Of a stretch of 64,000 nucleotides of DNA, positions 31,943-62,898 are shown piece after piece; within the stretch, counting starts at the first letter, position 1, and each line of letters begins with the position of its first letter. The notes under the pieces were generated by a model. The model was given only the letters and a program-made list of their open reading frames with translations, did no database searches and was not told where the DNA came from. Position numbers and translations under genes: made by a program. The stretch comes from Phycisphaeraceae bacterium (lineage in GTDB: Bacteria > Planctomycetota > Phycisphaerae > Phycisphaerales > Phycisphaeraceae): assembly GCA_028277745.1 (NCBI GenBank), contig JANQFR010000026.1, positions 1 to 64,000 of the forward strand, given 5' to 3'.

Positions 31943-32927
31943 ACCCTGGCGAACAGACCACGTCAAGTATCTTTACCCAAAAAACGAGAAGCCAACCGGA
32001 GCATCCCCCAGGTGATGTGGACATTTGAGGCGTCGTTTTCCCTGCGGCTTGAGTAAAGAAACACCTTCCTCCCGACTCGCCAGCCTCCGGTTTCCTTGTT
32101 GGCCGCCCCCCGATGTGTGTTGTTGTCCATCTGGTTACGGATCAGCGTCCAGTTGCCTTGGACGTCATAAAGCAGGTGGCCTGGAATTCGGCTTAAGGCT
32201 GATGTTCAAGGGCGATCACAATACACGGCCACAGACAGGGTGGGCCGTTCCACCGACGACCGGCGGAGTGGGAGTTGTGGGTTCGATGCCGGGGTTCAGT
32301 GGTGACGGTAACCATGACGGAGTTAGAAAGAACTAGATCGCACGCTCTCACTCCCACCCGCTGTGAACCGATCTGCTGGCGACAGGCCTGCCGTGCTCGT
32401 CGAGGATGCAAATGGATGAGGGACGTTGGTGAACATCCAACCCGGCCGTGAGCACGTCGAATCTTCTTGGTTGAGGAATATGGTCGGTCATTACCCCGAG
32501 ACCATCAGAGTTCGTTGCAACGCTTCAGGCTAGCCCGACGTTCACCAATCTTATTTAAGTTTCCGCCATTCGCATTTTAAAGTAATTGTCGAAGAGAACT
32601 TGCGCATTAGCAGGAAGTTAACGAAATCTTTATGTCAGGCTGTTTCCGGTAAAAACGAGCTGTCTGACGGTGACATGGAGATGGTCTCCATCCGCAATTG
32701 ATGACGCGGCGCGGCCGGCGTGAGGCCAGAAGCCCAGACCCTCCTGAAGCGTTTCGGTTGGTCTGTCGGTACATCTTGATGAGCGGGGGAAAGCTTACTC
32801 GGTCGGAAATGGCCTTCAAGTCATACCTGGCTATCGCTGCGCCATTTCTGTGTGTTGAGGTTGATTCTTGTTCGATCAGGGTGAATTGGGATTGTCTTGA
32901 AGGCTCGTGATTAGGGGACTTAGTCGC
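31943..32927. other. About 1 kb lower-GC intergenic region
   Basis: Between the lacI operator and the giant gene there is no convincing complete gene. Base composition is visibly less GC-rich than the flanks, most strongly at 32540-32640. On the minus strand, 31963-32210 is open for about 80 codons without a start (segments VQGNWTLIRNQMDNN and GGWRVGRKVFLYSS); I cannot identify it. An IS110-like fragment lies at 32348-32491. The stretch from 32500 to 32927 must hold the promoter of the giant gene, but I see no clear hexamer pair. Confidence 0.6.
32348..32491 (-). pseudogene. IS110-family transposase N-terminal remnant
   Basis: A 47-codon frame opening with ATG at 32491 and stopping at 32348. 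It contains AGLDVHQRPSSICILDEHG, which matches the start of IS110-type DEDD transposases (GLDVHKxSxxVCVLDxxG), including the first catalytic Asp. The remaining 300 or so residues are missing, and no second fragment is seen downstream. It is a decayed insertion-sequence remnant. Confidence 0.55.
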
Positions 32928-50900: not shown

Positions 50901-53669
50901 GCGAACTACGACGGCGCAGACAGCTTCACCTACACCGTGTCCGACGGCAACGGCGGAACCGCCACCGGGACCGTGAGCGTCACGGTCAACTCGACCAACG
51001 AGGCGCCCGCGTTGACCGTGGATGAGTCGGCGGTCACGGTGGACGAAAGCGAGACGGCAGCCAACGGCGGGACGTACGTCGACCCGGACGGCGACTCGCT
51101 GACCTTCTCGGCGACGGTGGGTATGGTGACCGATCACGGGGACGGGACCTGGAGCTGGTCGTACGTGACGACCGACGGCCCGGACGAATCGCGGGTGGTG
51201 ACGATCACGGCCGACGATGGGAACGGGGGCGTGACCACGATCGAGTTCGACCTGACGGTGAACAACGTGGCGCCGGAGCTGACGGTCACGGGCTCGACGA
51301 GCCTGCTGGAGGGCTCGACGTACCAAGTGTCGTTCTCGGCGACGGACCCCGGCGACGACACGATCACGCAGTGGCGCGTGGACTGGGGCGACGGCGTGGT
51401 GGACGTGCTGGGCGGCGACGCAACGGGCCACAGCCACGTGTACGAAGACGACGGGCTCTACGAGATCAAGGTGACGGCGGTGGACGAGGACGGGGAATAC
51501 ACCACTCGGCTGCTGTCGCCGGACCCGGAATTCGGGGTCAACGGGAAGGTGACAACGGACTTCTCGGGGTCGCAGGACTACATCTACTCGGTGTTCGAAG
51601 ACGGCCAGGGCCGGATCGTGGCGGCGGGAGCGACGCGGATCAACGGCGGACCGTTCGACTTCGCGTTGGCGCGGTACCTGTCGGACGGGACGCTGGACAC
51701 GAGCTTCGGCAACGGCGGGCTGGTGATCACCGACTTTGAGGGTGAGGCGGACCGCGGGTTCTCGGCATTCGAAGACGCCCAGGGCCGGATCGTGGTGGGG
51801 GGCTGGTCGAGCGATGGCGGCCAGTCGAACTTCACGCTGGCGCGTTACCTGTCGGACGGGACGCTGGACGTGAGTTTCGGCGACGGCGGGAAGCTGGTGA
51901 CCGATTACGCGGGTGAGCACGATCGGGTGCGTTCGGTCTACTCCGACGCCCAGGGTCGTCTGGTGGTGGCGGGCTACGCGTACATCGGCGGGCAGCCGGA
52001 CTTCGTGTTGATGCGTTACCTGGCCGACGGGACCTTGGACACGTCGTTCGGGACCAACGGGACGACGCTGATTGATTTCGCCGGCGGTCGTGACTTCGGG
52101 AACGCGGCGTACGCCGACGGCTCGGGCGGCATCCTGGTGGCGGGGACGGTGAATCTCGACGGGCTGAGCCGGTTCGGGCTGGTGCGATTTAACGAGGACG
52201 GGACGCTGGACACGTCGTTCGGCGTGAACGGGCTGGTGATCACCGCGTTGTCGGCGAACGAGGACGATTACGCCTATGCGCTGGTGGTCGACCGTTCGGG
52301 CCGGATCGTGGTCGCCGGTGAGAGTGACGAGGACTTCGGGTTGGTGCGGTACCTGTCGGACGGCTCGCTGGACCAGAGCTTCGGGTCGGGCGGCCTGATG
52401 ACCACTGACTTCGTGGGCGGCAAGGACCGGGCGCTGTGGCTGTACGAGGACAGCCTGGACCGTCTGGTGGTGGCGGGCTACGCGCAGCTCAACGGCCAGT
52501 ATGACTTCGCGATGGCGCGGTATCTGGAAAACGGCGCGCTGGACGCGACGTTCGGGGCCGGGGGCCTGTACACAACCGACTTCTTCGGCAGCCACGACTA
52601 CGCGTACTCGACGTTCGAGGACAGCCAGGGCCGGATCATCCTGGCGGGTTACGCCAACGAGCCGGGCGAATCGTACAACTTCGCATTGGCGCGTTACCTG
52701 GCGCCCCAGACGACGATGGTGCGGGTGAACAACGTGGCGCCGGAGTTGACGGTCGACACGCCAAGCGTGATGGCGGACCCTGGTGTGTCCGCGATCAACG
52801 GCGGCACATCGGCCGACCCGGGCGTGCTGGACGCCATGACGCTGGCGGCGTCGATGGGCCAGGTGATTGACCACGGCGACGGGACGTGGGGCTGGTCGCT
52901 CGACACGACAGGTTTAGATGCCGGGACATATACCGTGACCGTAACGGCCACCGACGACGACGGGGGGCAGGGGCTCGTGATGTTCGAGTTGGTGGTGTCG
53001 GCCCCCGCATCGCCGCCGACGGTGGCGGACGTGCAGGTGGGCTCATCGTCGTGGGACCAGCAGGGAGAATTTATGAACCATCTGCGCAGCAACAGCCTGG
53101 GCGACATCGGCTACAGCATCCCGACCGGCAGTGATGAGCAGCTGCGCAACCTGTCGTGGGCGGGGTTGGACCAGATCACGATCGTCTTCACCGAGCATGT
53201 GAACGTGACCAGCGACGACTTGGTGATCATCGGCACGATCGGCGGAACGTTGAGCGTGGCCGGTTTCACCTACGATCCAACGACTTTCACCGCAACCTGG
53301 ACGCTGGCGGCGCCGATCCTCACCGACAACATCACGATCACGCTGGACGGCGATGCCGGAACGGGCGTGAGCTCGGCTGGCTCGGGCCTGGCCCTGGACG
53401 GAGAGTTTGTCGACACGGTGGACACCTTCGACACGATCGGCGACGGCGCGGCCAGGGGCGACTTCGTGTTCGGGTTCGACGTGCTGGCGGGGGACATCGA
53501 CGACGATGGCAGCGTGCTGGGCGGCGACCTGGGCGCGCTGGGCTCGTTATATGGCCAGCGGATCGGCGGGGCGACGTACAGCATCTTCGCGGATCTCAAC
53601 GCCGACGGCAAGATTTTGGGAGAGGACCTTAGCGTGATCGGTTCGCGTTATGGTCAACGCTTGTGGTGA
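32928..53669 (+). CDS. Giant multidomain surface protein, LEPR-XLL N-terminus and C-terminal dockerin
   Basis: About 6,913 residues from the ATG at 32928, which has AGGGGA at good spacing; a GTG at 32907 is an alternative. Order of parts (residues): basic N-terminus and LEPLEERRLLSAD (31-43); unrecognised acidic region (to about 920); RTX-like glycine/Asp repeats (928-1013) with related repeats to about 1880; beta-propeller-like YVTN/lactonase-type repeats (about 1890-3070) with an inserted block (2066-2252); a second RTX-like patch (about 3125-3210); PKD domains with interspersed PPC domains (about 3270-4565); two cadherin plus CSLREA beta-helix modules (4568-5208 and 5328-5820); Ig/VCBS-like domains; seven delta-60 repeats (6199-6596); dockerin (6856-6913). 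All point to a calcium-binding extracellular adhesin or matrix protein. No catalytic motif is recognised. There are no internal stops over 20.7 kb, and the pseudopilin genes follow on the same strand. Confidence 0.93.
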   Translation: MARYVKVLDKLRHLLLVRNYADDRGLTPIRLEPLEERRLLSADLGLIDDGLTGTGAEDYFGALQKELNDEVFGALIPFVGDQFSEKTAGKIAEQIEEAWDQSTGFDFTDPNITVEQVRQEIANRFASLMDTGVQVLAIGDDNSAQVKYQVELSGDFTEIFDFELQLDPAVEILLTHQGGLLVDGSWDYVLTFGVDETNGFFIDVSGEDELVVDWTADLSSDFWGAGTLGVFGSSYKQDATEDSSFTGRFEIDIQDANTDDLLYSTEFVDTGVVGYATGSGEANLDADFALVPDFGDMINVTTAETFNLEFRSGVVVTFADFAADLSDDYTMSPTIEYTDIELNTYKFVLDFINPVMEDLQDTLRPLEDMISMMVDPIPGIDQIFEAAGMAPLNGFDLLRAAAVGTSVTNGSFNLAGTLIAIQAAESVFRTMDSILDFEAYTPGDFVVGTDLESEEAFSVLGTTVTGLDSTVRKNGKWQKPSSKNTFKGHDAKKQTPAKDVLDKAKGPLGAEEETRTKVFFGAEYADLSFPFLDDPNELFKLMSGDPTGKFFNFEVRDLQLSTTLRWSLVGVRFLNFINMGIEADILVELNGNLGFAYDGGGAQLLTDTLDFTGVNTLQTDVQTSLFLLNNGVRLEDHNGRSDFDGVETVYADDPDAARELPDFGGDQGPPRDGHEFGLLFRFALSPVAEFDASVIKLKAELEGGVEGLFFVDLNDLPNGTVEYLADPDNNPLPDEADGYEYDNSIRGLEAELLHDFNPAALFNYGGQVKAFARAKFEYTVAGWIKTKKEWVIADIILLQGPLYEFDDFDILNVVGNVQPVIGEVTNGELRLFAGELYADQRQYTKSFLDQSSDNATYEHFFIESLGASENGVGEDFLVTFIGYNAEGAAIGKATQTFTNVTSIVGDGGKNDDLFNVVSSTTNVDVTFTGGSGKDILAYSGAGDATLEGGAGDDILVGGSGDDTLKGGGGDDSLQGNAGSDKLYGGAENDTIDGGEGLDAVLEGGAGDDLYFWQVGQAGGQETINDLSGQDELTVIGGKQWNGVSYVDADDSVLVSNDSGVLYIANGSEQIDAGGIEGIALVLGGGADTVTLDDLDTTNLTRLAIDMGLPSGPDFDVDKMILVGSGNADTFDITDVTYDTDLGLVGIDVDASLGAGQDVLVRVINSDPGRDQIQILAGAGNDTINVDTDTTPVSRLIDLVLDGGSESDTFNVVYGDIEILGGAGNDTLNIEDDGTATGTRHLAYSAAQDGTGLSADSGAMHVRGTNQLIEFEGIENTVTLDMSNTTKANDLVIQSTTAGGLDVIGSEQSDDVHVKQVNGASSLRLAGSADTVEIGNNGTIDGIQAALNIIGGAGIDTVMYDDTGDTTGRTVSVTNTLVSGLGTRSSNVTYDSTVETLDLLLGYGDDIVTIADLGRRVEVEGGVGDDLVDVTYIGQPGSDSAKTVKTGAVETVVFTHDDIVINETVYWMVNGSKLWGSATKPTNEEASDFKHLLLDASDADLIDVQLDDDGTVLWDPSNVVYVKSLSVPMQINGDDGNDDIVLGFDGNTLDQIVAPLNLIDSKGSDTLTIDDQHRATTLTPVKFILDDTMVRRDAGAQQIADVTFAAGYWLIFEGSANSVPYDIAVQDAVLTSVRLNSSAEDEVTVTGVTFALGIVADPEDVIILDYGQAEAAVHTKVDSTSNGALKITDEDSAGAGPIEQVNIDGAGTVEITGSDFNDTFDLESALADVTLLFDGGKGDDVFNIIDWGTDSTQVDATEIIGGDQSDTVVIAVDGDPTDFTGLADGVVVDVENVGFMNTSSTDDIDWRVANDKVEAKLSTDSSYTTLLYTESVDKVTVNGGTAGGDTLEIQEAGGPVQATIKTDNVTMTVGPEIITPSDDGQFYVHEQNSDFDFDLWKKIGELDRSTDVGRSMWEGVRDFVVTRDGKHIYWVEDTTVIDGARFVWVGQVSNGSFLPGEVDRVSAGGTPSPAQFVAIAISPDDRQVYAYDAHDHVVSVFTRNASSGVLTFHSSVSVGSDYYITSLEFSSDGDVLYAASPDAVLRLTRNISTGALTKQSDEAVIGSSPPIVLAYYDFTDLDKNVDASAAGLDVSGIGAGGGLVSSIGPSRDHLSQPMLRVVADDVPNSGNGYLYLKYTPRAGNTINQDVYLDFDSLTFDWQLSGDANNQNRYKVIVRSSTDNYSTDIATFHPGYVGGMPSPSSPTFREGTTTLDLSDIVATNGEEVTLRLYVSNELNRPNDNTTLQLDNISFNGHMRDTREQPETEVVVSENHDFVYVGTESGELSVLTSYELSSVLDTIGSADGLGGVQAMTVVSDPVFGDFVYVKDAAAAKILVYSVDPSNGTLSLVQTLLDSDAASGDIDGITVLEASSDGAYVYALNETSDVLDIYRRDRDSGTLTLDRSVADSDTTDQSTFGQSEIDHLEVRDGQVYVSFGEGLQSYRHYQFTDMATDGTHIYAVDTAGQGLVVLDASDLSVVAEYYNDIEGVHSVEITADGEYVVIAGTEEGLGIYTRNSADGKLTFAQTYTGYLSSSEAADTHTYIPWRIAADPTDADIFYVSSVRQVNGFFNTSNGVRKLVRAADGSWPATPLISHVQTSNNVWPNTLDVSADGSQLYTDRDDNAYIYDTSDLSYTSDFFGSDNIPADMKDSSDGAFLFAAWREKNRVYISTADGTSDHSIVVAAPDSIAVSPDTNLVYIGSSTNDTITVLDRDANGYHFIQQVIDASEIPDLVGLDSLLTIGSRVYASTDAGFVAIDRSESADQFSFADIAVSPDGKHRYAIDTQNNEIVVLANDVVADGFKIVARHTLGSGDTPVDVEVAADGTHVYVTAGSLGKLYIFRRDATTGELTYMSTSTGSYIDTTPKSSGAGFYVLTTDGKIRAFSYSNSIFTYTELTTSVGSDASAIELSQDGAKLYVIRDASASDAAAQLLVFNASTGVLLETHTIGEVGFRSQGKHGAVTQTSDGRYFYVASPEAGELAVFEKQTDDSLTLIETISAVTGGRGLYDANSLAVSSDNTLLFVGSAAGGSVAAYRRDATTGELTFVQILRDRSDSALRGVNALTFDGGALVAATDEGLQYIDIDSTNTDVSEAFTVAFNDKLSDLITEFGAYDDTIIQTTAPHVDYHEITTNGGDDLIEIRENGDDADYSAGAGNDEVIVFATNPSGEIVVTGNGGEDKIYLNRAVNGVDVTINGGTDDDSIYVEGTKILSGSTVTIDGQTHDAGDTLYFNPGTTYGTNPADPQPNDPNTTPKTLGSLDPAAGSISYTRIEFVPGFQATSANAGGSYAITEGGSLSLAATYALATNTSLAGIAWDINGDGIYGDVTGANVTLDWATLQGLGIGDDGTYTVAVRVTDSAGNHAYDIATVTVSDKAPTLTVSDDGPMQAGTPIEVSFSAADPSDADVITNWAIDWNDGGGAQDLGIAFSSAQHTYLTTGSVTITVYATNKNGTFSTTHTLSITGATPTAEAATIAEGETLSLIVTAPGADSVRVLYNGTVVGTGASGSEIQIDWVTLDAQGINDEGTYTLVLEAVYDTTTITGTSSLTVTNAAPTATFTGSMVNEGQAATATFSNLVEPSSVDRSSNFKFEVDWDNDGTIDQTVTRTVPTTGSDAVVFTLPNTIKLDAGAHVVRGVITDADGGSTVVYTTIHVNEVAPTLTLTGLSTVTEGQIYQLAFSAADPGDDTVEGWIIDWGDGSEPVYYDGAAGTLSHTYDDNASYTITATAFDEDGYYGTTKIVAVADAPPALTVTPSATTGSEGDVLVLTLGASDVGDDVIEYWTVDWGDGTVERIAGGATTAYHAYQDDGTYTVTVSATDEDGTHTYTGSTISYIAANVAPTAELGSADGSDTPTVEEGSPFVLVLDNLYDPGQDHVSHYIINWGDGNTETIYPHAAPITTESSANDDGAAGFTTNDLAYADDLRGSFSRISRIDGQTERFSASVGGQIDVGSDVDVFLLDVAAGDTLSVSVGGGTLSNATVSLYDGTGNLIATATGSALTYDAFTETGAYYLVVKSNDTATGTYTLGVTHDRRQVIPPPVVRAEHTYADGDQTHTITVTIVDEDGSHTLVQTLGVQVLNESPVIDRLGGVEVRAGEVFTLDIGDVIDPGDDTPTGYVIDWGDGTSPQTVGVVDTVTHVYANDGTYLMSVTVVDEDGSHAPGTGDYTLNIVHEDADATPLIGSESEPNDSGEPDGSSAPTQFNDLSGSFAPVGGQDYRAVVTGASEPFAYDSGVPGWYDLYRLDVEAGDRIKAAVQGAETSGGTLARPMIHILDASGAIVASVTNGGADEDNPLDVTLSHDIPTGGSGAWFVAVSSDLQGTYTLDVTHTDVNAAPQVTAESGSNNNTPATADDLSGSFTPTGEGRRAVTVTGTIDASANNLNTGDYDNDPDVYEFQAAPGDSVRIEVAGDLLAPGALRSPVVQLLDKDGNVLASYEADGRGVATVNYTFSNTDYSGDYYVRVASNPEAGGYEVDILPALEATIGLNGADTIEEHHEYKLNVGAVTGSAAGDVTAVTIDWGDGTTTTVPYSGTAIGELTHTYTDAFLYDITASLTTSTDVFEDVASKRVEVTPYINRHAPVITSPPAAAIDENTTDVHTLTATDADVAPQPLTFSIIGGDDGALFELVNGNKLAFINAPNYEAPRDADGDNVYEVRVQVSDGELTDTQLVRVSINDLDALNLVVDNVVDESDGDYSVGDLSLREAIELTNAYREDVIDSISFDPTVFGTPQTILLTLGQMEITDDVTINGLGADLITIDAQDASRIFDVDNGGGGLIGVQISGLTLTGGLADASGDDDGGAIFSRENLLLSSVIISGNEAGGDGGGVYRAAGTLTINDSTISHNVADSGAGIYMRFGTLNVADSTISHNTAAVDGGGIYNSQGNTFVTGSTISHNIAAGGDGGGVSNRFGGNLRVTDSDISHNSSSGSGAGIMISSSGSSNFLEVTGSTIDSNTSGWTGGGIFALVNDVRISDTMISNNVGGGEGGGGLYAYGELTLAGSAVINNSTGSGRGGGVYLYNHDHNSGSVESTIINTTISGNDSADYSNVTSGNFGGGVYVTEHSSGTKLTIRNATITDNFPWGVYTNGVPVEIGNSIVAGNIGNTAGWDATLGSENGGTYVSLGYNLIGNGDQAGGAFVDGVNGDLVGSNTSKTQIDPRLGSPVDNGGGSWTHALLPGSPALDAGSAAVALDADGNPLTNDQRGVGFPRIAGHAIDIGAYEAPGDTTPPALLANTGLTVTRGQTVPITAAELAYTDDQPTDFIRYTVTTPPARGQLELTTNPGVAITSFTQKDIDDGLLVYVHDDSTHATDEFMFSVDDGRSNQVTNQRFAVIVVAHNENAPVITSPNTVAIDENTTDVLTVTATDADLPAQQITYAISGGDDAALFELVNGNELVFINAPDYENPLDTGGDNVYEVEVQVTDGVLSDTQLISVTVNDISSFVAVVDTVVDESDGDYSAGDLSLREAIEQANASHTGNYEGAAPLIKFDTTVFATPQTILLTLGRMDITGDIIIEGLGADRITIDADDSSQIFYTVSADIEISGLALTGGLADTYGGAIRSWGGDLTLSEVDIYGNTALTNGGGIGAQHGDVILNEVDIYGNTANGRGGGLWSQGGLIVVDSTIHDNEALLGGGLYVSGHTLTVINTTISGNKATDGHGGGVALWNGSVPGNGAGFTNVTITQNEASGKGGGVYMGIGTGFASDGSTFRNTIIAGNVNDDDIFVENLTNTPFTDLSHNLIGNGDNARGVFVDGVDGNIVGSLSGAGVVDALLGPLADNGGPTPTHAPAYGSPARDAGDDARALDTEGSPLLTDQRGAGYDRIVGTAVDIGAYEYVPSRPSAYDDAVTTDEDTALVINVLADNGSGADTDPDGDIDLTLTVVLTPPAKGTLTNHGDGTFTFDPSGAFDDLAVGETVDVTFTYQIEDAQGQTASATVTITVTGVNDAPVAPADIPFVIDENTMLNGDLVGYVTDVDSDVLTFAPGTNPANGTLSLNPDGTFTYTPDANYDGADSFTYTVSDGNGGTATGTVSVTVNSTNEAPALTVDESAVTVDESETAANGGTYVDPDGDSLTFSATVGMVTDHGDGTWSWSYVTTDGPDESRVVTITADDGNGGVTTIEFDLTVNNVAPELTVTGSTSLLEGSTYQVSFSATDPGDDTITQWRVDWGDGVVDVLGGDATGHSHVYEDDGLYEIKVTAVDEDGEYTTRLLSPDPEFGVNGKVTTDFSGSQDYIYSVFEDGQGRIVAAGATRINGGPFDFALARYLSDGTLDTSFGNGGLVITDFEGEADRGFSAFEDAQGRIVVGGWSSDGGQSNFTLARYLSDGTLDVSFGDGGKLVTDYAGEHDRVRSVYSDAQGRLVVAGYAYIGGQPDFVLMRYLADGTLDTSFGTNGTTLIDFAGGRDFGNAAYADGSGGILVAGTVNLDGLSRFGLVRFNEDGTLDTSFGVNGLVITALSANEDDYAYALVVDRSGRIVVAGESDEDFGLVRYLSDGSLDQSFGSGGLMTTDFVGGKDRALWLYEDSLDRLVVAGYAQLNGQYDFAMARYLENGALDATFGAGGLYTTDFFGSHDYAYSTFEDSQGRIILAGYANEPGESYNFALARYLAPQTTMVRVNNVAPELTVDTPSVMADPGVSAINGGTSADPGVLDAMTLAASMGQVIDHGDGTWGWSLDTTGLDAGTYTVTVTATDDDGGQGLVMFELVVSAPASPPTVADVQVGSSSWDQQGEFMNHLRSNSLGDIGYSIPTGSDEQLRNLSWAGLDQITIVFTEHVNVTSDDLVIIGTIGGTLSVAGFTYDPTTFTATWTLAAPILTDNITITLDGDAGTGVSSAGSGLALDGEFVDTVDTFDTIGDGAARGDFVFGFDVLAGDIDDDGSVLGGDLGALGSLYGQRIGGATYSIFADLNADGKILGEDLSVIGSRYGQRLW
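33018..33056 (+). other. LEPR-XLL-type N-terminal motif
   Basis: Encodes LEPLEERRLLSAD, a variant of the LEPR-XLL motif found at the N-terminus of very large planctomycete surface proteins, usually after a short basic segment as here (RNYADDRGLTPIR). The motif is thought to serve in export or anchoring; its mechanism is not established. Confidence 0.85.
35710..35965 (+). repeat. RTX/hemolysin-type calcium-binding repeat block
   Basis: Tandem nonapeptide-like units GGAGDD-x-L, GGSGDDTLKG, GGGGDDSLQG, GNAGSDKLYG, GGAENDTIDG and GGAGDDLYFW. These build a calcium-filled beta-roll. Here they sit inside the giant protein rather than at its C-terminus, so they probably act structurally and not as a type I secretion signal. 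Confidence 0.88.
39123..39683 (+). other. Inserted beta-sandwich-like block within the propeller region
   Basis: Encodes residues 2066-2252, starting IVLAYYDFTDLDKNVDASA and ending TLQLDNISFNGHM. It resembles the jelly-roll-like domains of PEP-CTERM proteins (YDF near the start, LDNISFNG at the end). It separates propeller repeats that end VLRLTRNISTGALTK and resume VVVSENHDFVYVG. The DNA from 39240 to 39680 is less GC-rich than the rest of the gene. Confidence 0.6.
46629..48551 (+). repeat. Cadherin plus CSLREA beta-helix module, copy 1
   Basis: Begins APVITSP...AIDENTTDV (cadherin-like repeat), then DESDGDYSVGDLSLREAIE (CSLREA-type start of a right-handed beta-helix). Right-handed coils rich in STISHN follow, for example NDSTISHN, ADSTISHN and TGSTISHN, ending with GSPALDAGS and AIDIGAYE. 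A second, shorter copy lies at 48909-50387. Confidence 0.85.
48909..50387 (+). repeat. Cadherin plus CSLREA beta-helix module, copy 2
   Basis: Same order as copy 1: APVITSP...AIDENTTDV, ALFELVNGN, DESDGDYSAGDLSLREAIE, a beta-helix with DIYGNTA and ISGN coils, LIGNGDNARGVFVDGVDG, and AVDIGAYE at the end. It is about 440 bp shorter, mainly in the coil part. Similarity is strongest in the cadherin and first beta-helix segments. Confidence 0.85.
51522..52715 (+). repeat. Seven tandem delta-60 repeats
   Basis: Units of about 55-60 residues with the core GRIVVAG....FALARYLSDGTLDTSFG. Seven can be counted, the fifth shortened (no FD insert) and the last ending LARYLAPQT. Delta-60 repeats form propeller- or solenoid-like surface structures. 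The block is flanked on both sides by VNNVAPELTV segments. Confidence 0.85.
53493..53666 (+). other. C-terminal dockerin type I-like domain
   Basis: Two calcium-loop motifs, DIDDDGSVLGGDLGALGSLYG and DLNADGKILGEDLSVIGSRYG, separated by about 16 residues and ending the protein with QRLW. This is the duplicated F-hand pattern of dockerins. Its cohesin-like partner is not in the window. Confidence 0.85.
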
Positions 53670-53762: not shown

Positions 53763-54389
53763 ATGTTGAAGTTGAAGAAAAGCATATGGCTAATCGCGGC
53801 CGCATCGGCCGTGTTGGGCGGACCGGCCCATGGCACGTACATCTTCAGCGCTCCGGACCTGGTCGTGAACCCCTTGGTCGATGGTTCGACCGGGACGTTC
53901 GATATCACGATCGAGTTCACCGAAGGCAGCGACCTGTCGGGCCTGTCGCTGGACCTGTTGATCGATCCCGCCTCCGGCCTCACGCTGACGGGAGCGACGA
54001 CGGAGCACGCCTCAAGGTTTGGCATCACCCCCGGCGGCGTGAATTTTTGGGATTTCACTTCGATGACCCCGGGCAACTACAACCTGTCTTCGACCGGCCT
54101 AGCCAACGCCGGGTTCAGCGGGGAGCAGACGATCTACACCGTCAGCTACGAGCTGACATCTCCCTCGGTCGCGGCGACCTACCGCTTGGGGCTGACGGTC
54201 ATTCAGGTCACGTCCGGCTCCTTCGCCGCTCCCGAGACTCTTGATGAGGACGACGCGCGGGTCGTGATCGATGACTCGCGCCGCGGCAGCCTGACGGTCA
54301 TCATCCCCGAGCCGGCTTCGTTGGTGCTGTTGGGACTGGGCTTGCTGACGATGTCGAGGCCGTGGCGAATGCACGGCGGGCGTCGATAA
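53763..54389 (+). CDS. PEP-CTERM protein with cohesin-like beta-sandwich character
   Basis: The ATG at 53763 follows AAGGAG; 208 residues. The N-terminal signal peptide ends LGGPAHG. The body has alternating strands, e.g. DLVVNPLVDGSTGTFDITI, LSLDLLIDPASGLTLTGA and YTVSYELTSPSVAATYRLGL, which resembles the fold of cohesin or cohesin-like domains. The C-terminus reads IPEPASLVLLGLGLLTM and ends in a basic tail (HGGRR), the exosortase sorting signal. The gene starts 93 bp after the giant gene on the same strand. A cohesin-like protein next to a protein ending in a dockerin would be a natural pair, but the cohesin assignment is tentative. Signal and PEP-CTERM parts are clear. Confidence 0.82.
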   Translation: MLKLKKSIWLIAAASAVLGGPAHGTYIFSAPDLVVNPLVDGSTGTFDITIEFTEGSDLSGLSLDLLIDPASGLTLTGATTEHASRFGITPGGVNFWDFTSMTPGNYNLSSTGLANAGFSGEQTIYTVSYELTSPSVAATYRLGLTVIQVTSGSFAAPETLDEDDARVVIDDSRRGSLTVIIPEPASLVLLGLGLLTMSRPWRMHGGRR

Positions 54390-54424
54390 CGCCCGACCGG
54401 TCGTGTATTGGGTGAGGTGTTGTG

Positions 54425-55105
54425 ATGCGATCGAACCATCAAGTCGAGACGTTACCGCCGCGGCCAGACCACGGCCGCCGGGTGTTCTTGCGTTGCTTCC
54501 GGGGGCGGGGATTCTCGCTGATCGAGTTGCTGGTGGTGATCAGCCTGGCGGCGGTGCTGCTGACGCTTGGGGTGATCGCCGGGAACGCGATGCGTGACCG
54601 GGCCGAGGCGGGGCTCGAACGGTCGGTGCTCATCGGCCTCAGCGGCGCCGTGGATGAGTACGCCACGCGGGTGGGTCGGCCGCCGGACCACACCGACCTA
54701 TCGGTCCCGGGCCTGGCCGTCAGCAGCGACGACGCCCAGGATTCGACGATCGGCTTGTTCTTGTCTAAGGCCCACCAACTGGGCGAGGACGCGTCGGTGT
54801 GGAAGATGATCACTTCGGCGACCCGCGACGGCCTGGTCATCGGCGACGGGACCGATGTCACGACGTGGTCGTATGTCGATATGTGGGGCGGCAAGCTGCG
54901 TTACGCCCGACGCGTCAGTCACACCGACGCGTTCGCGGCGGACGACTACCTGCCGGCCCACCCGGCGCCGTTTTTCGCCTCCGCCGGGCCCGACGGCGCG
55001 TTCGGCGACTACCAGCAGGTGTTGCTCCAGGAAGCGGGCCAGCCCCACGATGCGGACGCGGCTCGCGCGACCCAGGACAACCTCTACAGCTTCGATATCG
55101 AGTGA
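54425..55105 (+). CDS. Type II secretion pseudopilin-like protein (G/H-like)
   Basis: The ATG at 54425 gives 226 residues (a GTG one codon earlier is possible). The leader is long, about 30 residues ending FRGRG, and is followed by [24 protein letters not shown], with Glu at +5. The body LIGLSGAVDEYATRVGRPPDHTDL recalls GspG, and WSYVDMWGGKLRYARR is typical of such pseudopilins. It should be cleaved by a prepilin peptidase and enter a pseudopilus. First of five co-directional secretion-like genes, 4 bp before the next. The long leader is unusual compared with the 6-10 residues of classic pseudopilins. Confidence 0.85.
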   Translation: MRSNHQVETLPPRPDHGRRVFLRCFRGRGFSLIELLVVISLAAVLLTLGVIAGNAMRDRAEAGLERSVLIGLSGAVDEYATRVGRPPDHTDLSVPGLAVSSDDAQDSTIGLFLSKAHQLGEDASVWKMITSATRDGLVIGDGTDVTTWSYVDMWGGKLRYARRVSHTDAFAADDYLPAHPAPFFASAGPDGAFGDYQQVLLQEAGQPHDADAARATQDNLYSFDIE

Positions 55106-55109
55106 CGCG

Positions 55110-56183
55110 ATGAGACTACCGCCGCCCCAGACAACCCACCCCCACCCCCGGAAGCGCCCCCGCAAGCGCCCCTCCCCGCGGAGCCCGATGTGCGCTCGGC
55201 CCGCCATTTGCAGGGGCGGGGGCGTTTCCGGGCGGGGTGGGTTTTCACTGGTCGAGCTGCTGGTGGTGATTTCGATCGCGGCGATCGTGCTGGGGATCGG
55301 CTTCCCTTACGTCGGTGCGATGATCCGCTCCTCGAGCGAGCAGATGATCGCGAACACGGCTTCCAACGCCGTGAGCGCCGCCCGCGCTTACGCCGTGCGC
55401 TACAAGCCGTTTCTCGACGACGACCCCCACACCGGCCGCACCGCCGAGATCCACGGCGACGGCTACTCGGGCGCCGTGGCGATCTTCACGCCCAGCCGGG
55501 AGATCCGCCTCTGCGAGAACGATGAGTTGGCGACCGACCGGGCCACGGGCCTGCGGCTGGAACTGCCGACCAAGGGGTCGGGCGACCCGATCCGCAACGG
55601 CTACAAGCCGATCGAGGACCTGGGCGCCCTGCAGCTGTCGCAGCGGTCGGCGGTGCTCGGGATCGTCCGCACCGGCGCCGACACCCTCCAACTGCTGCCC
55701 CCGCCGTTCGCGATCAGCTTCAACCGGCGCGGGCAGATGGTCGTCCGTCGGTCGGCCGGCTCGGCCGAACGCTCCGACGGCCTCGTCTACTATGACGCCA
55801 ACGGCGACGGCGTCTACGACACCGCCGCCACCCGCGCCGGCTTCGGCGGCGCGTACCGCGACTACTTCCGCGGATCGGCGCCGATCATCCAGAACGCCGA
55901 TAGCCCCATGGACGGCTACCGCGAGCTGCCCTGGGAGGTGCTCGAGCCGGTCATCGGCCTGGTGATCTTCGACCCCCAGCAGGTACCCCAGGGCATCTGG
56001 GTCGACACCGGCTCGCCGTTGGCCGCCAACGACGGGGCCCGGTACGACCCGGACCGTCACCTGGCCTACACCATCGACACCTCCGACCTCCATGACACCG
56101 ACCTGCTGGCCTGGGCCGCCAAGCCGGGCCGGGCCACGGTCATGTTCTTCAACCGTTTCACCGGCGCTGACACCCTGCGCTGA
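55110..56183 (+). CDS. Type II secretion pseudopilin-like protein (GspH-like)
   Basis: A 357-residue protein starting at the ATG at 55110, 4 bp after the previous stop. A basic, proline-rich leader of about 45 residues ends SGRGG, then [28 protein letters not shown] forms the pilin helix. The segment SNAVSAARAYAVRYK fits GspH-type minor pseudopilins. It is longer than classical GspH. The region DGLVYYDANGDGVYDTAAT contains an Asp-rich loop that may bind calcium. Likely part of the tip complex or a core variant of the pseudopilus. Cleavage by a prepilin peptidase is expected. Confidence 0.82.
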   Translation: MRLPPPQTTHPHPRKRPRKRPSPRSPMCARPAICRGGGVSGRGGFSLVELLVVISIAAIVLGIGFPYVGAMIRSSSEQMIANTASNAVSAARAYAVRYKPFLDDDPHTGRTAEIHGDGYSGAVAIFTPSREIRLCENDELATDRATGLRLELPTKGSGDPIRNGYKPIEDLGALQLSQRSAVLGIVRTGADTLQLLPPPFAISFNRRGQMVVRRSAGSAERSDGLVYYDANGDGVYDTAATRAGFGGAYRDYFRGSAPIIQNADSPMDGYRELPWEVLEPVIGLVIFDPQQVPQGIWVDTGSPLAANDGARYDPDRHLAYTIDTSDLHDTDLLAWAAKPGRATVMFFNRFTGADTLR

Positions 56184-56199
56184 CGGAGCAAACCCCGCG

Positions 56200-57234
56200 A
56201 TGCCAAGCCCAGGCCCCGCCTCTCCTCCCCCTCCCACGCCCGCCGCGCCTGGCTTTTCGATCATGGAGGCGCTCGTCGCGATGGGCGTGCTGTCGATCGG
56301 GCTGACCATGGTCGCCGCGATCTTTCCCACCGCCATCCTGCTCCAGAAAGAAGCGGCCCAGGACGCGCGGCGACAGATCAACGTCCGCTCGGCCGAGGCC
56401 ATCCTCCAGGCCAAGACCCTCGACGCCCAGGTCCTGTTTGACTTCACCGAAGACGCCGCCACCCGCGCGCGGCTGGCGCGGACCGGGGTGAGGGACCTGG
56501 AGTTCGACGTCTACGCCCTGGCGGAGGTCGACGACGACCTCAACGACCTGCACACCCCGGACATGCGGGTCGGCAGCTATAACCCCGCGGGCTCGTACCT
56601 CAACCGCTGGCCGCAGGTCGACCGCTGCTTCCCGTCTTACCTGCCGGACCCGGCCACGCGCGAGGTCTACAGCGTCCCGCTGTTCCGACGCGGCCGGCAA
56701 GGCACGCCCTACATCAACGACTGGCCCGTCTACCTGTTCGTGATGCGCCGTAACCACAACGCATCGGGGAAGGGCTACTACACCAACCAACCCAACGATC
56801 CGACCGGCAACCTCACCGCCTGCGCCAACCCCTTCGACGACGCCGATTACTTCCCCAAGGTCTTCAGGATGGCGGTGGACGACGCCGTCGACAACCGGCT
56901 GGACGTCGGCGTCGGCGGCAACCTGCAGGTCTTCCCGGACAACAGCACCGGGCTGCGGGTGCGGGCCGGCGACACGATCCTGGTCGATGTCCCGATCATC
57001 GGCGGGGGCGACATCATCTACCGCGTCACCAGCGCCGACAGTCGGTACATCCGGGTGAATCAGGACCTGCGTCAAGACATGGACAGCACGCTGTGGGCGG
57101 ACCCCGAACAGAAATTCGGAGACATCAAGGCCATCTGGTTCGCCATGCCGCCGACCGACGCGGCCGGCTCCCCAGTCCGGGATATCCGGGTCCTGTCTCA
57201 ATCCACGGTCCAGACAATCGCGGGGTTGAACTGA
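56200..57234 (+). CDS. Type II secretion pseudopilin-like protein (GspI-like)
   Basis: A 344-residue protein from the ATG at 56200, 16 bp after the previous gene. The leader is proline/alanine-rich and ends PAAPG; the helix FSIMEALVAMGVLSIGLTMVAAIFPTA follows. The MEALVAM pattern is typical of GspI/PilV-type pseudopilins. The large C-terminal domain has no family I recognise and contains VYLFVMRRNHN and RYIRVNQDLR. In T2SS, GspI starts the tip complex with J and K, and a J-like and a K-like gene follow here in that order. Confidence 0.82.
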   Translation: MPSPGPASPPPPTPAAPGFSIMEALVAMGVLSIGLTMVAAIFPTAILLQKEAAQDARRQINVRSAEAILQAKTLDAQVLFDFTEDAATRARLARTGVRDLEFDVYALAEVDDDLNDLHTPDMRVGSYNPAGSYLNRWPQVDRCFPSYLPDPATREVYSVPLFRRGRQGTPYINDWPVYLFVMRRNHNASGKGYYTNQPNDPTGNLTACANPFDDADYFPKVFRMAVDDAVDNRLDVGVGGNLQVFPDNSTGLRVRAGDTILVDVPIIGGGDIIYRVTSADSRYIRVNQDLRQDMDSTLWADPEQKFGDIKAIWFAMPPTDAAGSPVRDIRVLSQSTVQTIAGLN

Positions 57235-57235
57235 G

Positions 57236-59140
57236 ATGAACGCTCACCGCACCGATTCGAATCACGACCGCACACGTGTCCGCTCCCAGAGCGTTTGTTC
57301 CGGAGCTGTTTCCGGGGGTAGGGGCGGGTTCACGCTGATGGAGATGATGGTCACGGTGGCCATCTCCGGCCTGCTGATCCTGCTGGTGCACCAGATCTTC
57401 AACAGCGTGGTGCGGGCCGTCGAGAACGGCAAGGACGTGAGCACCATCATCGACCACGCCACAGCGTTCAGCACGCAGATGTTCGCCGACGGCAAACAGA
57501 TGATTACCCACCGGGCCAACCCCCACACCCACCCCGAGTTGGTCGATCAGCCCGCCGCGTTCCTGGTCATCATCCAGCAGACCAACACCGGGGTCCGGTT
57601 CCCGGCGCCCCGGAAGCAGCGGCAGCCGATGGAGGACTGGGGCGTCTCCACCGACCCGATCCACTCGGCCCAGCTGCTGCTGTTCCGCGACGCCGACCTG
57701 ATCGACGCCATGACCCCCGCCGCCGCCGACCGCTACGACTCGGACGCCCGCGCCCAGATCGCCGCCGTCTGGTACGGCCATCTCGCGCCGCCCGACGCCA
57801 ACGGCGGCGCAACCGGGGTCGAGATCGGCGTCGGACCCGACAACGACGCCGCCCCCCGGCTGGTCCTCGGGCGCCAGGCCCTCTTGATCGTCGATCGCGG
57901 CGGCCGCTTCCCCAACGGCGCTGAACTCGCCGCCGCCGGGCTCTTCTACGCGGACTTCGAGGACGCCAACGATCCTCTCGTCCCCAGCGACCCCGCCGCC
58001 GACGCTGTCCCTGGCCACCCCGGCGTCGCCGTCCGGGCGGTCTACGACCTCGACGTCACCGGGACCCCCGGTGATGACTACAACAATCTCTGGGAAGGCG
58101 CGACCGACGTCCTGGCCATCGATGACTCAGCCGACGGCGGCAACCGATTCTTTTTCCACGAGATGTTCGCCGAAGAGATCGACGGCCCCGGGTCGGTTCC
58201 GGGCCTTTACGCGGTGACCACCGCCCACGCCAACCCCGATTACCAACGCCCCCGCACCGGCTTCACCGACATGCTTGACGCGTTCTGGATGCCCACCGCG
58301 GCCTACAAAACGATGGCCAGGAATTGGGGCTATTCGGCCTACGGTTACCGGCTCACCGGCGCCCAGAAACTCACCTACCCCTACACGCCCCAGCAGGTCG
58401 GCCGGATGCACCCGTTCTTCATCCCCCACGTCTCCGACTTCGCCGTCGACTTCGCCGCCGACATCACCGACGACTACGACGCCGACGGCGATTACCGCTT
58501 CCGCGTCGCCGCCGGCGCGGTCGCCGCCAACGTCGCGTTCTCCGCCGACGGCCTGCCCGACGCCACGCCCGACGAGTACGCCTCCCTCGACGCCAACGGC
58601 ACGCTGGTCAAGGCCATCAAGTGGTACAACGCCGTCGCACCTAACCCCGACCTCGACGGCGACGGCGTCGGAGACGTTGACCCCGCCAAGACCATCACCT
58701 GGCCAATCCCCGCCGACGCCGTCAGCAACCCAACCCAGCAGCAGCACGGCCCGTACCACTCGCCCCTGGTCCTGGGCCCCACCGTCAACGGCGCGCCTTA
58801 TCCGCCCTACGTCGCCCATCTTCAGACCCCGTACAGCACGATCCATCGCCGCGCCGTCTTCGTCTTCGGGCACACCCCCGACCTGGACCTGTACAACGCC
58901 GACGCCGGCGACGTCGCCCGCACCGCGCCCGACTTCGGCGACGGCGCCGACGCCGCCGGAGCCGGCGAGGCCAAGGGGTTCGAGTCCGGCTGCGCCAAGT
59001 GGTGGCCTTACCTGATCCGAATCCGGTACCGGCTCCACGACAACAACGGGTCCTTCAGCTCGATCGACGAGGTCAGCCAGGCCCCGATCGTCGGCAAGTG
59101 GTTCGAGCAGATCATCCCCGTCCCACGCCCCCCGCAATAA
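57236..59140 (+). CDS. Type II secretion pseudopilin-like protein (GspJ-like)
   Basis: A 634-residue protein, about three times the usual GspJ size, from the ATG at 57236, one base after the previous stop. The leader ends SGGRGG and is followed by FTLMEMMVTVAISGLLILLVHQIFNSV, the J/PilW-like helix with Glu at +5. The large soluble part contains Asp-rich patches such as DYDADGDYRF and NPDLDGDGVGDVDP, which look like calcium-binding loops. The C-terminus includes the pattern YLIRIRYRLHD seen in pseudopilin tails. Expected in the tip complex of a pseudopilus together with the I- and K-like proteins. Confidence 0.82.
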   Translation: MNAHRTDSNHDRTRVRSQSVCSGAVSGGRGGFTLMEMMVTVAISGLLILLVHQIFNSVVRAVENGKDVSTIIDHATAFSTQMFADGKQMITHRANPHTHPELVDQPAAFLVIIQQTNTGVRFPAPRKQRQPMEDWGVSTDPIHSAQLLLFRDADLIDAMTPAAADRYDSDARAQIAAVWYGHLAPPDANGGATGVEIGVGPDNDAAPRLVLGRQALLIVDRGGRFPNGAELAAAGLFYADFEDANDPLVPSDPAADAVPGHPGVAVRAVYDLDVTGTPGDDYNNLWEGATDVLAIDDSADGGNRFFFHEMFAEEIDGPGSVPGLYAVTTAHANPDYQRPRTGFTDMLDAFWMPTAAYKTMARNWGYSAYGYRLTGAQKLTYPYTPQQVGRMHPFFIPHVSDFAVDFAADITDDYDADGDYRFRVAAGAVAANVAFSADGLPDATPDEYASLDANGTLVKAIKWYNAVAPNPDLDGDGVGDVDPAKTITWPIPADAVSNPTQQQHGPYHSPLVLGPTVNGAPYPPYVAHLQTPYSTIHRRAVFVFGHTPDLDLYNADAGDVARTAPDFGDGADAAGAGEAKGFESGCAKWWPYLIRIRYRLHDNNGSFSSIDEVSQAPIVGKWFEQIIPVPRPPQ

Positions 59141-59176
59141 ATCCCTACCCCCCCGCACCCTCTGGAATCGACGACC

Positions 59177-62100
59177 ATGAGCCGCAGCAACAGGATCCGT
59201 GTCGGCATGCCCCGGCCAAAACACACCGACGCCCGACGCAGGGGCAGCATCCTCATGCTGAGCATGGTGCTGCTGATCCTGCTGATCATGGTCGGCGCGG
59301 GATTCCTCCAGATGAGCCGCGCCCAACGCCGATCCGTCCAGATGGTCGATACCCGACACCAGGACTACGAAGGGTCCATCCTCCGCTTCATCGCTGAGAT
59401 CCTCGCCGCAGACACGGTTGATCCCGAAACCGGCGAATTCGCCCCCACCGGACTCGACGCGCCCCCTCCTCAGGAGCGGTACGACTACCCCTGGACCAAC
59501 CCCACCCTCGGCGCCGACCTGTCCCAGGACCGACTTGAGTCGGGCCACCTCGACGGCGCCTACTCCGCCAACATCACCCAGGCCGCCGCCGTCGTCCCCG
59601 GCGTCCCCTCCAACCACTCGGTCGGCGACGGACCCCTGTCACGCGACGATGCCTGGCTCGCCTCCATCGAGCCGGACAACCTTGCGGCCGAGCCAACCTG
59701 GCCCCACCTGACCAACCTCCGCGGCGTCTTCCTGGACCTGGACGACATCATCGACGTCAAGGGCGACGGCTCGGTCCTGCTGCCCATGCAGCACCTGACC
59801 ACCGGGGACGATCACCTGGCGTCGGGCAACACCGACATCCGGATCAGCGACATGCTCGCCAACCCCGGCAGGTTCGCCGACGCCGACGCCGACGGCATCC
59901 CCGACAGCCGGTGGACCTGGGCCCCCTTGGCCAACCAGCTGGGCCGGCGCTACATCATGGCCGTGCGCATCGTCGACAACTCCGCCATGGCCGACCTCAA
60001 CACCTGGAACGCCCTCACCACCGGCTCCGCCTACGCCTACACCGCCGACCCTACGCAGATGCCCAACTGGTACTGGCCCGGCGAGCTGAACCTCCACCCC
60101 GTGGTCCTCGACGACGTGACCTCGCTGGCCGGGGGCGATGCTTATCTGTGGTCGGTGCTCGGGGAGCGGGGCGTGGCCTTGACCGGCAACCGCTCCGACG
60201 CCTCCGCCCGCTACCGCAACTGGCTCCAGGCCAGCCGACGCTGGGGGAATCTCGCCAACGGGAGCCTCCTGCCCGCAGACCTGCGCTACATCGGCGCGAC
60301 CCTCAAGCGGGACCAGGCCTCGGGCGCCAGGACCTTCCCCGCCGGCCTGGGCGTCGTCGACGCCCAGAACATGACCGCCGCCGCCGAACCCTACCAACGC
60401 TACAGAGGCGTCAACGAAGCCGAGATCCGCTGGCGCAACGGGGTCAACCGCTCCTCGGACAACCTAGCCAACGACGCGGTCACCGACATCGAATACGCCG
60501 GCCACGGCGCACACGAAGACTGGTGGCGCCAGAACGCCGACCCCGTCGAGGTCGATCACCGCTCCACGCCCTATTCCACCGTCCAGGCTTTCTTCCAGAA
60601 CGAGAACCGTAAGCGCTTCACCCTCTTTGCCGGCAGCGCCGACCACGAGAAGCTCGACCTCAACGCCATCACCGCCCAAGCGATGGCCGACGCCATCCGC
60701 GACCGAATGGCCGACCACCCCCGCGCCGACAACCCTCCCACCGGCGCCCAAGGCGGGCCACATCTCTCCAGCCCCCCCGACGTCTGGCTCGATGGGGACG
60801 CCCTCGCCGACGCCCTCGCCGTCGCCGCCATCGACTTCCGCGACGCCGACAGCACCCTCACCAAGATCGGCTCGGCCTACGGCATGGAGTACCTGCCCTT
60901 CATCTCTGAGATCTATATCCAGGCCCGGTACATCGTCAGCAGCATCGAAGACGACGGCAACGGCGAGTTCCTGGTCACCTGGGAGCTGCGGGCCATCGAA
61001 GCCGCCGTCGAGATCGTCAACCCCTGGCCCTGGCCCATCGAGATCCCCGAGGGCGTCAAACTGTTCATCAACGACCAGGAACTGGGCGACCTGCGCCAGA
61101 TGATCGGGGCCGCCGCCGCGGCCAGCAGCGAGCACAACGACCCCTACCTGGCCGGCCACGAGCTGATGCACCTGTTGATCGACGATACCGGCTCCGAGTC
61201 CTGGCCCACCTACCCCGGGACCCAGCTGCTGCTCGATCCCGCCCAATACGCCTGGCCCAGCAGCGGCAACGCCGTCAACCGCATCATCACCGCCCGGCTG
61301 GAGGCGCCGGCCAGCGATGGCGCGCGTGTCGTCTACCAGCGGATCACCGCCATCGCCCCCGCCGACCGCCAACTCAACCACTACGTCACCGAAGTCGAAT
61401 ACGAAGACGACGGGGTCACCCACGGCGGGACCGGCTACATGCAGTTCCACGTCCTCGGCACCGGCGACGGCCTCTCGGCCCTCACCGTGCGGGAGGCCGA
61501 CACGCAGGCCGTCCGACGCGACACCACCCACTTCGCCGAAGGCGGCACCCCCTGGCACAAACGCAGCGTCCTGCCCGACGGGACCGACCCCACCGGCGAA
61601 CTCCGCTTCGACACGCACGCCAAGAATGCCAACCAACCCAACGGCCCCGACCTCGACGGACGCGTGGCCGACGCCGCCTCCGTCGGCAGCACGCCCACCC
61701 CGGGCGACGAGCCCTTCCTCATCGGCAACGCCGGCGTGTTCTACCGCGCCGGCGACCTGCTCCGCGTGGTCTGTCTCGGGCCCAACGACACGCAAACCGT
61801 CGCCGAGGTCTGGGCCGACGTCGAAAACAAAACCCACCGCTACGCCGTCGCCGACTTCATGCTCGACCTGACCTATGAGCCCGACCCCAACGACCCCGAA
61901 GCCGTCGCGGAATACGTCGACGGCCGCCAGGTCAACCACGCCGCCTACCTCCTCGACCTGTTCTCGACCCTGCGTCCCAATGAGGACGGCGTCGACAACG
62001 ACGGCAACGGGCTGGTCGACGACGAGACCGAACAACTGATCCCCGGCCGGATCAACCTCAACACCGCCTCACGCGCCCTGCTCAAACGCGCCCTGCCCAT

Positions 62101-62614
62101 CCCCGGGCTCGCCAACTCCACCTCGCTCGACGGGCTGGTCGATGACATCATCCTCGCACGGTCCACGCCCAGCGCCCGCGGCGGCGTCACCAACCGACGC
62201 GACGACGCCAAGGACCTGGGCCTGGCCTGCCTCGGCGAACTCGCCACCACCGGCGCCGCCAGCTGGACCGACCCCGACGCCGTCGTCGACGCGTTCGCCG
62301 ACTTCAACGAGTACGACCCCGACCTCGGCCCCGGGGGCTGGGCCGCCGCCGCCCACGCCGCCGACGGGTTCACCCGCGACCGCGAGGAGATCACCCTCCC
62401 CTTGGCCGCCCTCAACCAGGTCGCCTCCGTCCGCACCGACATCGTCACCGCCTACGTCGTCGTCCGCGCCTACCCCGCCGACGACTTCACCAACGCCGGC
62501 GCCTACACCCCTCTCGAGCAGCATCACATCATCGCCACCTTCGACCGCTCCGTCATCCACGAGAACAGGCCCCTCCCCAGGCTCATCGCCGTCGCCGTCT
62601 ACAGGCAACGCTAA
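59177..62614 (+). CDS. Type II secretion GspK-like minor pseudopilin, very large
   Basis: A 1,145-residue protein, over three times the length of classical GspK. The N-terminal RRRGSILMLSMVLLILLIMVGAGFL is a pilin-like helix without Glu at +5, as expected for GspK; QMSRAQRRSV follows. Near residue 957, PGRINLNTASRALLKRAL matches the conserved GspK core (KINLNTA), and DGVDNDGNGLVDDE just before it is a calcium-loop-like motif. The long central part (e.g. RRYIMAVRIVDNSAMADLNTWN) is typical of large planctomycete relatives but I know no function for it. In T2SS, GspK caps the pseudopilus. Last gene of the five-gene set, 36 bp after the J-like gene. Confidence 0.82.
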   Translation: MSRSNRIRVGMPRPKHTDARRRGSILMLSMVLLILLIMVGAGFLQMSRAQRRSVQMVDTRHQDYEGSILRFIAEILAADTVDPETGEFAPTGLDAPPPQERYDYPWTNPTLGADLSQDRLESGHLDGAYSANITQAAAVVPGVPSNHSVGDGPLSRDDAWLASIEPDNLAAEPTWPHLTNLRGVFLDLDDIIDVKGDGSVLLPMQHLTTGDDHLASGNTDIRISDMLANPGRFADADADGIPDSRWTWAPLANQLGRRYIMAVRIVDNSAMADLNTWNALTTGSAYAYTADPTQMPNWYWPGELNLHPVVLDDVTSLAGGDAYLWSVLGERGVALTGNRSDASARYRNWLQASRRWGNLANGSLLPADLRYIGATLKRDQASGARTFPAGLGVVDAQNMTAAAEPYQRYRGVNEAEIRWRNGVNRSSDNLANDAVTDIEYAGHGAHEDWWRQNADPVEVDHRSTPYSTVQAFFQNENRKRFTLFAGSADHEKLDLNAITAQAMADAIRDRMADHPRADNPPTGAQGGPHLSSPPDVWLDGDALADALAVAAIDFRDADSTLTKIGSAYGMEYLPFISEIYIQARYIVSSIEDDGNGEFLVTWELRAIEAAVEIVNPWPWPIEIPEGVKLFINDQELGDLRQMIGAAAAASSEHNDPYLAGHELMHLLIDDTGSESWPTYPGTQLLLDPAQYAWPSSGNAVNRIITARLEAPASDGARVVYQRITAIAPADRQLNHYVTEVEYEDDGVTHGGTGYMQFHVLGTGDGLSALTVREADTQAVRRDTTHFAEGGTPWHKRSVLPDGTDPTGELRFDTHAKNANQPNGPDLDGRVADAASVGSTPTPGDEPFLIGNAGVFYRAGDLLRVVCLGPNDTQTVAEVWADVENKTHRYAVADFMLDLTYEPDPNDPEAVAEYVDGRQVNHAAYLLDLFSTLRPNEDGVDNDGNGLVDDETEQLIPGRINLNTASRALLKRALPIPGLANSTSLDGLVDDIILARSTPSARGGVTNRRDDAKDLGLACLGELATTGAASWTDPDAVVDAFADFNEYDPDLGPGGWAAAAHAADGFTRDREEITLPLAALNQVASVRTDIVTAYVVVRAYPADDFTNAGAYTPLEQHHIIATFDRSVIHENRPLPRLIAVAVYRQR

Positions 62615-62631: not shown

Positions 62632-62808
62632 ATCCAATGCACAAGCTTTTGCCGAATCGGTGAACATGCCGTCCTCCGCGCCGGCGGGTGCGCGTTCCTT
62701 ATCGACTACGACACCGATCTCGATGGCGGCGACCTCGCCCAAACTGTGACCGTGGTCACGATCCCCGAGCCAGCGTTGCAGGCGTTGCTCGGCTTATGGC
62801 AGGTTTAA
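62632..62808 (+). pseudogene. PEP-CTERM protein C-terminal remnant
   Basis: An open frame without a plausible start, beginning after a stop at 62629-62631. It reads ...GGCAFLIDYDTDLDGGD, TVTVVTIPEPALQALLGLW and stops at 62806. The IPEPA motif after a beta-strand run is a PEP-CTERM start, but the hydrophobic helix and arginine tail are missing. It is probably the tail of a decayed surface-protein gene between the GspK-like gene and the sigma factor. Confidence 0.5.
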
Positions 62809-62898
62809 CCGAATATGAATATGAGCCACTAGTTCTGGTCAGGCGCTTCCTCTACTATGTGGCCCCAAACGAGGGTTTTTGTTTTCGCAAGACCACTT

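Follow-up and report, generated by a model that had tools for sequence, protein, structure and literature searches.

The stretch of DNA analyzed here, which we call the window, comprises the first 64,000 nucleotides of the forward strand of a 107-kb contig (JANQFR010000026.1, C19 below) of a Phycisphaeraceae bacterium (assembly GCA_028277745.1). Its positions 54422-62614 hold five tandem, intact open reading frames on the plus strand in G-H-I-J-K order, separated by gaps of 4, 16, 1, and 36 bp and all with good coding scores (Table 1). The prepilin N-methylation profile PF07963 scores 24.7, 25.8, and 21.6 bits against genes 1, 2, and 4 (cut-off 21.2), with TIGR02532 also matched, and gene 3 carries GFSIMEALVA, with Glu at +5, despite a PF07963 score of 15.4 bits. 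The best matches of genes 3 (PilV) and 4 (GspJ) each fall under the curated cut-off. Gene 1 carries the prepilin motif, and its product ends in SAGPDGAFGD, which by eye resembles the calcium loop of GspG; this GspG-like C-terminus is more evident in the G protein of a relative, G038 (SAGQDGVFGTDDDI), than in that of the window. With a prepilin motif, Glu at +5, and a hydrophobic helix, the products of genes 1-4 are predicted to be minor pilins or pseudopilins of a type IV filament.

Table 1. Features of the window discussed in the text.
Feature	Position	Strand	Length (aa)	Family match or basis
LEPR-XLL-type giant surface protein, outside the cassette	32907..53669	+	6920	LEERRLLSA near N-terminus
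PEP-CTERM protein between giant and block	53763..54389	+		PF07589, TIGR02595 at cut-offs
G-like pseudopilin (gene 1)	54422..55105	+	227	PF07963 1.6e-5; TIGR02532 7.9e-6; weak GspG/GspH
H-like pseudopilin (gene 2)	55110..56183	+	357	PF07963 7.4e-6; TIGR02596 N-terminal, sub-cut-off (28 of 70 bits)
I-like pseudopilin (gene 3)	56200..57234	+	344	PilV-type match 3.2e-4; PF07963 below cut-off
J-like pseudopilin (gene 4)	57236..59140	+	634	GspJ 9.7e-5; PF07963 1.5e-4
K-like tip pseudopilin (gene 5)	59177..62614	+	1145	GspK and HHH_3 via homologues
Weak terminator-like hairpin, 3' of K gene	62677..62692	+		Consensus scan

A preliminary description of this DNA had claimed a pseudopilin-like quintet in G-K order, and the quintet is real: its frames are intact, its members carry prepilin motifs, and the identical five-gene order recurs in dozens of relatives, which makes the block more than a product of chance. 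The range then given, 53763-62614, was right for the cassette itself (54422-62614), but its first ~630 bp (53763-54389) encode the separate PEP-CTERM protein. That every member is enlarged holds against the type II secretion system (T2SS) set of the same genome (121, 177, 121, 211, and 341 aa), relative to which the window proteins are ~2-3.4 times larger, but their size is normal for homologous blocks of the class. The consensus scan that gave the hairpin behind the K gene found 6 terminator-like hairpins against 4.2 expected, so the hairpin is no evidence of function, and promoter and terminator signals around the block were at or near chance level. An ECF sigma factor gene (TIGR02999, 181 bits) lies immediately downstream of the block, at 62857-63447.

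The K-like protein begins with RRGSILMLSMVLLILLIMVGAGF and, like GspK, has no Glu at +5. The INLNTA core reported for it earlier is present as GRINLNTA at residues 957-964 and lines up with GspK from the T2SS of this genome. No family model, the curated GspK models included, matches the window protein directly; among 39 aligned homologues, the NCBIfam GspK model (NF037980) matches nine (best 8.6e-5), HHH_3 eight, and T2SSK (PF03934) one, at 0.023. A profile of the K family meets the genome's own T2SS GspK in the INLNTA region (E 3.5e-6, 46% identity over 35 columns); the two are distant, with similarity confined to the surroundings of the motif. Twenty columns are invariant across the 39 homologues, the window frames retain the conserved residues of the family, and K homologues are present in 71 genomes out of the 101 searched, a set made up of the window's own genome and 100 relatives. 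An AlphaFold model of K built from six sequences reached a pLDDT of 33, too low for any use. In some relatives, the frames at the K position run from 1732 to more than 2400 aa (loci L079, L080, and L088), and K homologues bear extra domains, CBM5/12 in one and lamin-tail in four. At locus L050 (G016:C38:9006-16865), a full K-like gene is followed by two shorter K-like frames (386 and 684 aa) that may represent a second, broken copy.

The Verru_Chthon cassette is a small cassette of genes with prepilin-type N-termini, and the window cassette is similar in this respect. We considered this identity and rejected it, as the TIGR02596 and TIGR02599 matches of window H and J are N-terminal only and below the cut-offs, and none of the 39 K homologues has a Verru_Chthon match that would supply an equivalent of K. 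A search of the literature on planctomycete pseudopilins or Verru_Chthon cassettes found nothing relevant.

We searched the source genome (G000; 5.1 Mb in 99 contigs, 95.6% complete) for the machine that such proteins would need. Profile searches with PF00482, PF00263, and PF00437 gave zero matches on C19, no L or M gene was seen among its open reading frames, and PF11104 is likewise without a match there; the earlier observation that no secretin, ATPase, or platform gene is nearby holds across the entire contig. Of the genes that would stand alongside the pseudopilins in a T2SS, E, F, and D are thus absent from C19 and none for L/M was seen there. Elsewhere, contig C97 ends in PilB-PilT-PilB-PilC followed by the start of a small pilin, and this motor is present in one copy in the genome. 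Its first PilB carries a c-di-GMP domain of the MshE type and scores 607 bits as PilB versus 585 as GspE, its second PilB scores 647 versus 626 bits, and its PilT scores 448 bits (cut-off 319). Contig C28 starts with a fragment resembling a pilin C-terminus, followed by another set of G/H, H, I, J, and K and by HIT, with HisB and HisC further along. Because gene fragments lie at both contig ends, C97 and C28 are most likely contiguous, meeting within the first pilin gene; a sequence overlap between the ends was looked for and not found. Two T2SS-like loci, on C36 and C50, each have their own normal-sized G-K set, E, F, and secretin, and the K, G, E, and D proteins of C36 match T2SS families. 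The search for prepilin peptidases gave a single one, on C21. Besides the C97 machine, the genome has five of GspF type. The genome also holds secretins on C95 and C7, PilM-type matches on C91 and C95, extra ATPases on C91 and C46, and pilin-rich loci on C17 and C45.

The arrangement in relatives links the cassette to a motor. In 44 related planctomycete loci (39 + 5), the block stands directly after PilC/GspF and PilB-type ATPases, usually as PilB-PilT-PilB-PilC and otherwise as PilB-PilC, and HIT and His genes frequently follow it. In these relatives, the cassette is thus genetically linked to an assembly ATPase and a platform protein. A contig search with K alone returned nothing, and with the K alignment as query it returned six loci in named records (Phycisphaeraceae, Phycisphaerales, and other Planctomycetota MAGs) that carry the family, with the motor in view at four. 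Across 294 genomes taken from the phylum, 134 have profile matches, which are weak outside the class. In all 11 genomes tested, the C97 PilC has just one relative (74-80%), whether or not a block is attached to it; in one of these genomes it is split over two contigs. Genes were called by a simple script, which makes start positions approximate; many of the relatives are draft assemblies, and blocks at contig ends were excluded from the count of detached ones. Detached five-gene blocks were found in three relatives, all of one genus, g20 (G038, G019, and G046). In G038, amidohydrolase-like and pyruvate-kinase-like genes (named by eye) flank the block, and in both G038 and G019 PilC is followed directly by HIT and HisB at the motor locus, the block being missing there and located elsewhere. 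In the single-contig genome of G038, ~2.2 Mb in coordinates separate the block from the motor. This genus apparently lives with the detached block as its sole one.

Cassettes and motors differ in divergence, with a mean identity among 14 relatives of 71-74% for the motor and 69% for GyrA versus 28-33% for H, I, J, and K. In the GyrA tree, the source genome is sister to G009, G036, G003, G014, and G037, and the PilC tree agrees weakly. All five cassette trees (G, H, I, J, and K) place the window block together with G014, G037, G003, G042, and G036, whose blocks lie behind the motor wherever the contig shows it: window G groups with G014/G037, window H is sister to these two (support 96), and I and J fall in the type-B clade (support 99 and 100). 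The C28 block groups instead with G041, G035, G005, and G034, plus G006 where present. Forcing the C28 K into the clade of the window block was rejected (AU p 2.4e-5), as was forcing the G009 K together with its genus mates G042 and G036 (AU p 1e-8), although the tree groups were named after the trees had been seen and these p values are a guide only. We set aside a further AU test, with the window K and C28 K as sisters (p 0.05, likelihood difference 395). Inside the clade of the window block, cassette branching departs somewhat from that of GyrA. The separate groupings of the two cassettes, together with this departure, indicate that cassettes and motors have partly separate histories, which may reflect either transfer or duplication with loss. 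As the window block goes with the motor-linked blocks of sister genera and the C28 block with other genera, cassettes appear to have been exchanged behind a constant motor.

The homology of the block, the motor linkage in relatives, and the single C97 motor point to that motor as the partner. We consider it probable, judging from gene content and phylogeny, that the window block is an alternative cassette for the pseudopilus tip, dissociated from its motor and serving the C97 PilB-PilT-PilC machine in trans; this machine is conserved in the class of planctomycetes to which the source belongs. The preliminary description had proposed a minor-pseudopilin (tip) set that depends on a machine encoded elsewhere, which our analysis supports, and had assigned it to a housekeeping T2SS, which is unlikely given that both T2SS-like loci have G-K sets of their own and that homologous blocks follow PilB-PilT-PilB-PilC. 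In the proposed mechanism, the cassette encodes a complex with large external domains that would initiate the pilus tip. The C21 prepilin peptidase would process the cassette proteins; I, J, and K would assemble as a tip, which G and H would extend; and the C97 motor would build the filament in trans, with PilT able to retract it. The window and C28 tip sets would share this one motor, such that the cell could equip the same filament with one tip or the other, for adhesion or surface contact. The partner might also be one of the other five GspF-type machines.

The cassette could instead be a silent remnant, displaced from the motor locus by another cassette and now unused. The lack of a motor nearby and the apparently different cassette behind the motor fit such a history, but five intact frames with good coding scores and the family's conserved residues argue against decay, as does genus g20, which apparently has only the detached block, and we regard disuse as unlikely. 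Slightly less likely still is that the cassette is an alternative tip for the T2SS-like machine on C36 or C50, both of which have E, F, and a secretin. The G-H-I-J-K order and the GspJ and GspK similarity would suit this pairing, whereas the homologous blocks of relatives are tied to C97-type PilB-PilC, and K resembles T2SS GspK around the INLNTA motif only.

The remaining alternative comes from the preliminary description, which had cast the block as a pseudopilus tip dedicated to the giant or the PEP-CTERM protein, recruiting it or exporting it by way of a T2SS. The giant (with propeller, PKD, RTX, and cadherin domains), the PEP-CTERM gene, and the block share a strand, the gaps between them being 93 and 32 bp, and no convincing terminator was found from the giant gene through K, so one transcript from the giant to K is possible. 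A survey for the block beside LEPR-XLL giants, as then suggested, speaks against dedication: no giant stands beside the 44 motor-linked or 3 detached blocks, no frame above 1500 aa other than K was called in stretches of 10-20 kb around a set of blocks that includes 39 of the motor-linked ones, and LEPR-XLL motifs, found in 52 of 101 genomes, do not occur at the block in relatives. Blocks that stand without giants are the very outcome that the preliminary description had named as its refutation. Conserved adjacency to LEPR-XLL giants, expected of an accessory to giant export, is absent. The sole giant near a K gene among the relatives is in G030, in which a K gene stands alone, without pilins, ~5.7 kb behind a frame of more than 15,000 aa; this could favor an association, but the G030 giant has no similarity to that of the window and other genes intervene. 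The PEP-CTERM gene is in none of the homologous blocks of relatives, and so lies outside the conserved cassette, and 60 other genomes lack a full-length relative of its protein. With T2SS-like loci that possess their own pseudopilins, dedicated export through a T2SS is improbable, and the block's position beside the giant gene may be coincidence; under the C97 pairing, the giant and the PEP-CTERM gene would be neighbors and not the defining cargo.

Some features of these neighbors deserve mention in their own right. The frame in G030 (G030:C1:455000-501310; L225, L116, and L048) extends over more than 15,400 aa without its start being reached. The C-terminus of the window's giant (near 53490-53669) has two dockerin-like repeats, GDIDDDGSVLGGDLGALGSLYG and ADLNADGKILGEDLSVIGSRYG, and the adjacent PEP-CTERM protein reads somewhat like a cohesin; that the two form a surface anchor pair is a guess, as there is no Cohesin or Dockerin family match and a single-sequence model of the PEP-CTERM protein (pLDDT 47) has no fold match at E <= 0.001. 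Further upstream on the minus strand (29102-29896 and 29981-30778), a DUF1559/SBP_bac_10 pilin-like gene lies beside a PEP-CTERM protein gene, with a LacI-type regulator-like gene (30819-31889) as the pair's downstream neighbor.

Unlinked tip clusters that share a machine have precedents. Myxococcus xanthus has three minor-pilin clusters for one T4aP machine (PMC7541494), and the proposed arrangement is like these minor-pilin/PilY1 clusters in having unlinked alternative tips with one PilB/PilT motor (PMC7541494). However, the M. xanthus clusters consist of FimU/PilV/PilW/PilX and PilY1, whereas the window block is G-H-I-J-K, its K is very large, and PilY1 was not seen in it. The Kil (Tad) pilus of Myxococcus has four KilLMN tip clusters for one machine (PMC12075869); it likewise combines paralogous clusters with a single machine and tips with extra external domains, but its pilins are Tad-type and each tip has three genes (PMC12075869). 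The block shares with T2SS GspG-H-I-J-K the gene order, prepilin motifs, GspJ and GspK similarity, a K without Glu at +5, and the INLNTA core, and departs from it in that the blocks of relatives are linked to PilB-PilT-PilC and a secretin gene is absent from the motor-linked loci shown.

Somewhat tentatively, we picture a type IV pilus motor joined to an oversized tip in T2SS order, with a cassette that may be swapped as a unit among lineages, can be detached from its motor, and may serve as a spare second tip, which would let a single filament bear varied recognition parts on its outside. Our analysis points to a probable partner motor for planctomycete genes that have hardly any family annotation, and it disentangles the block from the giant, a pair that seemed linked in one genome. 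The filaments of this phylum are little studied in the literature we found, and if cassettes are indeed exchanged behind a constant motor, this machine would offer a natural system for examining what the tip contributes to a type IV filament.
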